DNA from: an uncultured Aeriscardovia sp.
Lineage (GTDB): Bacteria > Actinomycetota > Actinomycetes > Actinomycetales > Bifidobacteriaceae
Direction of reading: 5' to 3'
NCBI GenBank assembly: GCA_903789535.1
Contig: CAIFES010000003.1
Location: forward strand, 62,001 to 126,000
Length of the DNA stretch: 64,000 nucleotides
Positions 28,758-30,373 of this stretch are shown here, one piece after another (the stretch's first letter is position 1; each line of letters opens with the position of its first letter). A program made the translations under genes and the position numbers. The notes under the pieces were generated by a model. The model did no database searches, was not told the origin of the DNA, and saw nothing but the letters and a program-made list of their open reading frames with translations.

Positions 28758-29888
28758 ATGACGCAGACTGACGAGACTTTCGAGACTGACGAGGCCAACG
28801 AGACAGACAAAATTGTCGAGGCTGCCGAGGACGGCACAGACATGGACGGCGGGGACGCGGAGGCGACGGCCCCCACGCTCGCCGAGGTCGTCTACCAGCT
28901 TGAGCGGCTCTATCCGCTCAAATACGCCGAGGACTGGGATCACCCCGGCCTCATCGTGGGCGACCCGCTCGCCAGGGTGCGCAGGATTTATCTCGCCGTC
29001 GACCCCACGCTCGCCATCGTGCGTGAGGCGGCCGCCTGGGGCGCCGACCTGCTCGTCACCCACCATCCGCTCTTCTTCCGCAGCGTCCATCAGGTGGCCG
29101 GGACCGGGCACAGGGGAGCGGTCACCAACGAGCTGGAGCGGCGGGGCATCGCCCTGTGGGTGGGACACACGAACGCCGATGCCGCGCACCGCGGGGTGAG
29201 CGAGGCGCTCGCCGACAAGCTCGGTGTGCGCCATCAGCGGCCGATCGTGCCGGTCTCCGACCCCGATTCCATGTGGGACGGCCAGGTGGGCCTGGGCCGC
29301 GTGGGAGAGCTGGAGAAACCGATGAGCCTGCGCAACTTTGCCGACGTGGTCAACTCCGTGCTGCCGCCGACGCGGCGTGGCATTGATGTGGCCGGCGACC
29401 TGCACATGCCGGTGCGGCGCGTGGCCGTGCTCGCCGGCTCGGGCGACTCGCTGTTCGAGCAGGTGCGTGCCACAGACGCCGACGTGTATGTGACGAGCGA
29501 TCTGCGTCATCACCCTGTGCTTGACGCCCGTCAGCAGGCCGATGAGGAGGCCATGCTGCGCAAGGCGGGCATCGAGGTGAGGGAGGGTGTCATCACCTCG
29601 GTGGGAGATCCCGGTGACATCACGACTGCTGACAGTGATGCCGTGGCCGGTGACAGTGACGTCACTGACTCTGACGCACGGGTCTTCGCCCGCCCCGCGC
29701 TCATCAACACCCCGCACTACGCCTCGGAGAAGGTGTGGATGGACTACGCGCTGCATGACATCCCTGCAGCGCTGGAGGACGCGGGCAACCGGCACGTGGA
29801 GCTGCGCCTCTCGCCCACGGACACCGACCCGTTCACCCTCCATCTCGACTCGCCGACCGAGCCGGTGATGCCCCGTCCGTTGTTCTGA
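28758..29888 (+). CDS. Nif3-like dinuclear metal center hexameric protein
   Basis: WDHPGLIVGD, LLVTHHPLFFR, GHTNADAA, GSG(D)S. Confidence 0.92.
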   Translation: MTQTDETFETDEANETDKIVEAAEDGTDMDGGDAEATAPTLAEVVYQLERLYPLKYAEDWDHPGLIVGDPLARVRRIYLAVDPTLAIVREAAAWGADLLVTHHPLFFRSVHQVAGTGHRGAVTNELERRGIALWVGHTNADAAHRGVSEALADKLGVRHQRPIVPVSDPDSMWDGQVGLGRVGELEKPMSLRNFADVVNSVLPPTRRGIDVAGDLHMPVRRVAVLAGSGDSLFEQVRATDADVYVTSDLRHHPVLDARQQADEEAMLRKAGIEVREGVITSVGDPGDITTADSDAVAGDSDVTDSDARVFARPALINTPHYASEKVWMDYALHDIPAALEDAGNRHVELRLSPTDTDPFTLHLDSPTEPVMPRPLF

Positions 29889-30042
29889 GCGACGTTGACG
29901 GCAGTGTCCGTGCTGCCTATTGCAGCCGTGCAGGAAAGCTCCCGCTGTCGTTTTGCGGTGCGGAGAAGCTGGCGTCGTTGCAGAGGATGATGGGACATCC
30001 TCCGTCCCGGTGCCGTCTGAGGTGCCCTCTGATGGGCGGTAG

Positions 30043-30071
30043 TTGGAGACAGCGGTCTTTTTGTGTAAACT
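30043..30071 (+). promoter_or_regulatory. Putative sigma70-type promoter TTGGAG-17-TAAACT
   Basis: Read directly; 17-bp spacer; predicted TSS about 30078. Confidence 0.55.
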
Positions 30072-30077
30072 GTGAGT

Positions 30078-30123
30078 GTTCCCGGTAATCCGCTGACCCA
30101 ATTGGATTGCCGGGAACTTTTTT
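30078..30123 (+). terminator. Intrinsic terminator-like hairpin + T6 immediately 5' of tRNA-Pro
   Basis: 14-bp stem GTTCCCGGTAATCC/GGATTGCCGGGAAC (one G-U), 12-nt loop, TTTTTT ending at 30123. Confidence 0.85.
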
Positions 30124-30197
30124 CGGGTCATAGCGCAGCTTGGTAGCGCGCCTGCTTTGGGTGCAGGAGATCGCGGGTTCAAATCCCGCTGGCCCGA
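30124..30197 (+). tRNA. tRNA-Pro (TGG)
   Basis: Acceptor CGGGTCA/TGGCCCG, anticodon arm CCTGC-TTTGGGT-GCAGG, T arm GCGGG-TTCAAAT-CCCGC. Confidence 0.93.
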
Positions 30198-30373
30198 CTA
30201 TTTCTTCCCATCATTCCAACGATTCCGTGTTGTTGGGGTGATGGGGAATTGAGTCTTCAGACATGATTAGACACGATTGCGTATTGCCTGCGACGATGTG
30301 CCGTGCGCGTGGGGTCTTGTTGCCCAGGCCTCGTTCCCGCACTGCCGGACCGATGTACCACATGTGCCGCGAA

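Follow-up and report, generated by a model that had tools for sequence, protein, structure and literature searches.

The hairpin that stands directly ahead of the tRNA-Pro(UGG) gene in the 64,000-nucleotide stretch of DNA analysed here (the window) is probably the 5′ leader of the tRNA precursor, of a type that recurs in the Bifidobacteriaceae, with passive, leaky termination in the source species at the six T residues (T6) that separate stem and tRNA. It is ordinary in kind for the family, and unusual in its strength and in its T tract; the start site, the use of the leader by RNase P and the partial termination are what we infer from the sequence. The assembly of the source genome comprises 1.6 Mb in 14 contigs and is 93% complete, and tRNA-Pro(UGG) is the sole UGG proline gene found in it. 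A 16S search of the assembly found no rRNA gene. The window appears to come from a separate small-genome genus within the Bifidobacteriaceae. The sequence CTCCTGGAAACGGGTGG, which we take to be a Bifidobacterium-specific 16S primer site, occurs in genomes from two further genera of the family and is absent from the same-order outgroup.

The layout of the locus is given in Table 1. A sequence-only reading had proposed that TTGGAG-17-TAAACT fires into a terminator hairpin ending exactly where tRNA-Pro begins, and the positions of the hexamers, the 14-bp stem, T6 and the 5′ end of the tRNA were borne out by the sequence, ARAGORN and Rfam, the latter two agreeing on the same first base of the tRNA. 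The arms of the stem occupy 30078-30091 and 30104-30117, enclosing a loop at 30092-30103, and the single G-U pair is T30086-G30109; the gap between hairpin and tRNA is 6 nt and the distance from the −10-like hexamer to the tRNA 52 nt. The Nif3-family gene adjoins tRNA-Pro(UGG) in relatives too, either oriented alike or lying on the opposite flank. The hairpin 3′ of the tRNA is long and strong but lacks a T tract, and the downstream terminator that is usual for tRNAs of the source genome is missing at tRNA-Pro(UGG). We also considered a repeated-element origin of the region 30030-30210 and rejected it, matches elsewhere in the source genome or genus being limited to the tRNA part.

Table 1 Features of the tRNA-Pro(UGG) locus in window coordinates
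Feature	Position	Strand	Basis and remarks
−35-like hexamer TTGGAG	30043..30048	+	Read from sequence; best pair by tRNA-promoter matrix
−10-like hexamer TAAACT, 17-bp spacer after TTGGAG	30066..30071	+	Sequence; predicted RNA start ~30078
Leader hairpin, 14-bp stem with one G-U pair, 12-nt loop	30078..30117	+	Fold
T6 between stem and tRNA, putative single-stranded spacer for RNase P, U-tract of a terminator, or both	30118..30123	+	Sequence, terminator score
tRNA-Pro, anticodon UGG, CCA not encoded	30124..30198	+	ARAGORN; Rfam RF00005, 67.1 bits
Upstream gene, Nif3-family protein (name from the sequence-only reading)	28758..29888	+	ORF; stop 189 nt ahead of stem
Hairpin 3′ of tRNA-Pro, possible trailer or 3′ structure	30205..30247	+	Fold, −27.8 kcal/mol; then ATTGAG

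The leader hairpin folds at −25.8 kcal/mol, compared with −9.4 ± 2.4 kcal/mol for shuffled sequences (z −6.9), and in a fold of the full precursor it forms side by side with the tRNA. It is the longest stem followed by T6 in the window and, on both strands, the sole stem of at least 12 pairs with this ending, an arrangement that did not occur once in 200 shuffles. A simple terminator scan gave no report at this hairpin because its loop, at 12 nt, exceeds the 8 nt to which the scan is limited. Likewise, TTGGAG-17-TAAACT went unreported in a scan for the stock sigma-70 consensus because the −35 is weak. When a promoter matrix trained on the other tRNA genes of the source genome was used (consensus TTGCGC-N16/17-TATACT), this pair was the best in the upstream region, yet 16% of shuffles reached its score. 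In the same genome TAAACT is also the best −10 for tRNA-Ile according to the matrix and is visible ahead of tRNA-Lys(UUU), and in relatives a clear TATAYT box occupies the corresponding position. On these sequence features, we regard TTGGAG-17-TAAACT as a probable promoter.

To place the hairpin in its family, we compared 60 distinct regions upstream of tRNA-Pro(UGG) from Bifidobacteriaceae with 21 such regions from further families in the class. In the layout that recurs in the family, the tRNA is preceded by a −10 box, a spacer of about 10 nt, a stem-loop and a gap of 0-4 nt. A hairpin that ends at most 6 nt from the tRNA and exceeds 95% of shuffles in strength is present in 38% of the family leaders versus 10% of the outgroup leaders, with a median hairpin p of 0.12 versus 0.50; taken individually, about 60% of the family leaders are non-significant for such a boundary hairpin. 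The clearest clade keeps the TATAYT −10, the roughly 8 nt that follow it, the TTGTGC start, the stem and a gap of 2 nt constant; the hairpin goes from 24 to 12 nt (from GCTCACATGAGC to GCCCATACGGTGATACCGATGGGC), and on comparison of the sequences the arms change in step (GCTC/GAGC, GCCC/GGGC, GCCTGG/CCAGGC). Several outgroup genes have a TAGACT-like −10 only about 14 nt ahead of the tRNA, which leaves no space for a hairpin. The difference in frequency, the constancy within this clade and the hairpin-excluding spacing of these outgroup genes lead us to regard leader hairpins, on sequence comparison, as a recurrent feature of the Bifidobacteriaceae, in which sequence and length drift and the stem re-forms.

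The same tendency is seen across tRNA genes of other specificities. Among tRNA genes without another tRNA close upstream, significant leader hairpins were found in 41% of the 37 regions of the source genome, in 32% of 28 regions from two Bifidobacterium genomes and in 15% of 27 from the same-order outgroup, each region being compared with 40 shuffles, which makes the p value of any one region coarse. The strongest hairpin of the 37 is that of tRNA-Pro(UGG) (z −6.3), followed by those of Ser(CGA), Leu(UAA) and Gly(GCC). The leader in the window fits the family pattern, with a −10 box, a stem-loop and a short unpaired gap, and with a stability above shuffles that recurs in relatives; with its 14 bp and T6, it is far longer than the typical leader hairpin of the family and more terminator-like. 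In three relatives of the same genus no comparably strong hairpin was found ahead of tRNA-Pro(UGG), the best folding at −3.4 to −6.0 kcal/mol, and the leader hairpin is therefore not a strict orthologous element. A literature search, which covered open-licence papers only and is thus weak evidence, found no paper on leader hairpins across bifidobacterial tRNA genes or on mapped tRNA starts in this group.

How might such a leader work? RNase P favours unpaired leader bases beside its cut and is hindered when the leader pairs with the 3′ end or is occluded by a stem-loop; a leader stem-loop can also inhibit the enzyme in E. coli valV, and in engineered leaders, a distal stem-loop has been used to keep distal leader bases from inhibitory structure (PMC9433436). 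The likely use of the family hairpins would be of the latter kind: they would hold the distal leader apart from both the body and the 3′ end of the tRNA, and a short piece of leader would stay unpaired for RNase P. At the locus in the window, RNA polymerase would start at, or a few bases from, the foot of the stem, the stem would fold while emerging from the polymerase, and the six U residues would stay single-stranded beside the cleavage site, allowing RNase P to cut at 30124. In the source species this unpaired stretch happens to be T6, and some transcripts would therefore probably end there. A passive, leaky terminator of this type would lower the yield of tRNA, and would also block part of the read-through from the upstream gene.

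Among the 60 family relatives compared, T6 is private to the source species: a conserved T tract was not found, and none of the 60 family tRNA-Pro(UGG) leaders scores above −15 on a terminator score of the d'Aubenton-Carafa form, which is used here for ranking only. The hairpin is therefore a habit of the family, and the terminator character belongs to the source species, so that the conservation in relatives that had been suggested as a check holds for a leader hairpin as such but not for its terminator character. In sequence, the element does have the parts that define an intrinsic terminator, a stable GC-rich hairpin with a T tract immediately after it in the same strand, and it scores 34.5. 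In the source genome, a positive score is obtained in 22 of 45 downstream tRNA regions, and the downstream tRNA terminators with a hairpin and T5 or longer mostly score 32-68, which places the leader in the window near the lower limit of that range; Val(CAC) has the one other upstream region with a comparable score, 48.5. The earlier description as a perfect terminator hairpin can thus be kept as regards a strong hairpin followed by T6, but not as regards perfection, given the G-U pair and the low-end score. From its sequence, passive partial termination at T6 is plausible. As a separate observation on downstream elements, near-identical long hairpins (GGCCGG...ACCAACGATTCTGAATCG...CCGGCC) lie downstream of tRNA-Arg(ACG) (L074) and tRNA-Arg(UCU) (L068) in the source genome, perhaps as a copied terminator.

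Could the hairpin instead be a true intrinsic terminator that ends the Nif3-family transcript and insulates the tRNA, the promoter being spurious or weak and the tRNA fed by read-through? From the stop codon at 29888 up to the tRNA, this is the only hairpin with a T tract directly after it, and a hairpin with T5-T7 ends many tRNA units of the source genome, in the range of which the score of the element falls. The stem, however, lies 189 nt past the stop codon, a recognisable promoter stands between gene and hairpin, relatives of the same genus with the same gene order (L003, L004) have no such terminator ahead of the tRNA, and the tRNA would be left without a promoter of its own. We therefore consider this explanation unlikely. 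The related alternative in which the hairpin ends the Nif3-family mRNA and the tRNA starts from its own downstream signal finds no sequence support for a downstream start. T6 abuts the tRNA and leaves no space for a promoter after the stem, so that a promoter bypassing the hairpin would need to sit within the stem, and none is visible there. Transcription from the Nif3-family gene would likewise cross the hairpin, and relatives keep the order of −10, hairpin and tRNA. The layout of the sequence thus supports the view that every route to tRNA-Pro(UGG) passes the hairpin, in agreement with the original claim that the tRNA must be transcribed through it.

As only one tRNA-Pro(UGG) gene was found, this read-through must be substantial if UGG is needed. 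With inosine in place of the first base of its anticodon, tRNA-Pro(AGG) could read CCA too. A proline tRNA with A34 is unusual in bacteria and would depend on the inosine modification for wide reading. In the genus, tRNA-Pro(AGG) is present in two genomes (the source genome, L010/L081, and L009), and tRNA-Pro(GGG) in two others.

One could also speculate that termination itself is under selection, most chains stopping at T6 and a leaky remainder setting a low dose of tRNA-Pro(UGG). The terminator-like score, which is within range, would be in line with such a passive attenuator, as would a second case in the source genome. In the cluster Gly(GCC)-Cys(GCA)-Val(GAC)-Val(CAC) (contig C9:13522-13892 of G000; L083 1023-1393), a terminator-like hairpin with T7 (CCGAAGCGGTAGCTTCGG-TTTTTTT) lies between the two Val genes, 9 nt ahead of tRNA-Val(CAC), so that a tRNA preceded by a terminator-like hairpin is no isolated case in these genomes. 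The arrangement recurs in several relatives, where the same spacer holds hairpins of other sequence, several of them with T tracts (L253, L254-L256, L259, L261); other relatives have no hairpin or no T tract there. A precedent is offered by E. coli glyV-X-Y, where a terminator with considerable read-through has been termed an attenuator (PMC10950094). Against selection for this function stand the restriction of T6 ahead of tRNA-Pro to the source species, the lack of a reliable way to compute termination efficiency, and a score close to the lowest among T-tract terminators in the source genome, and we regard it as quite improbable.

A regulated attenuator that can switch to an antiterminator structure, or an abundant regulatory RNA of 45 nt acting on its own, is very improbable: the locus does show the order expected of a short RNA, a promoter and then a terminator-like hairpin, and the loop sequence UGACCC is complementary to GGGUCA at the 5′ end of the tRNA, but the predicted RNA begins at the stem, with no upstream segment for a sensor, a leader peptide or an antiterminator, the 5′ end of the tRNA is made only after the decision point, and an Rfam search returned no RNA family besides tRNA. 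The pairing of loop and tRNA was itself discarded as a signal, being equalled by 9% of shuffled leaders and showing no excess in relatives. Attenuation in the regulated sense, as had been suggested from the sequence, is thus unlikely because no RNA upstream of the hairpin could form the antiterminator; the short RNA and the insulator suggested alongside it are possible as side effects.

The preferred reading, a family leader hairpin with passive leaky termination, has partial counterparts among known systems. Like the leader in the window, that of E. coli valV in the valVW operon has a stem-loop in the transcribed 5′ leader beside the RNase P site (PMC9433436), but the valV stem-loop inhibits RNase P and orders the processing of a two-tRNA transcript, whereas the window has a single tRNA with six unpaired U residues predicted beside the cut, and leader hairpins recur across tRNA genes of its family. 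The glyV-X-Y unit of E. coli similarly contains an intrinsic-terminator-like hairpin at which read-through is expected (PMC10950094), but behind the tRNAs, whereas the hairpin in the window stands ahead of its tRNA, no more than 50 nt from the predicted start. With intrinsic terminators it shares the GC-rich stem directly followed by T6 and a score in the genome's own range; it differs from the usual ones in lying at a transcript start rather than a gene end and in its long 12-nt loop, and is a candidate only. Attenuators of the trp-type leader peptide and T-box classes have the same succession of promoter, terminator-like hairpin and gene, but the locus in the window has no leader peptide, tRNA-binding domain or antiterminator, and its predicted start is too close to the stem to accommodate them.

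Leaders of tRNA precursors are commonly regarded as short and lacking structure. If many tRNA genes of a family begin with a hairpin that drifts in sequence and keeps its fold, that family would offer a natural series for the effects of leader structure on tRNA folding, RNase P processing and transcription, and the hairpin in the window, with its gained T tract, a test case for whether a built-in leaky terminator can dose a tRNA. A prediction program that labels leaders of this kind as terminators would put the ends of transcripts in the wrong place. The significance of the finding would rise if termination sets tRNA dose, and one could, with little confidence, extend the argument to propose that Bifidobacteriaceae may dose individual tRNAs by leaky terminators ahead of them, at the transcript start (Pro UGG) or within a cluster (Val CAC), built on the habit of forming leader hairpins.
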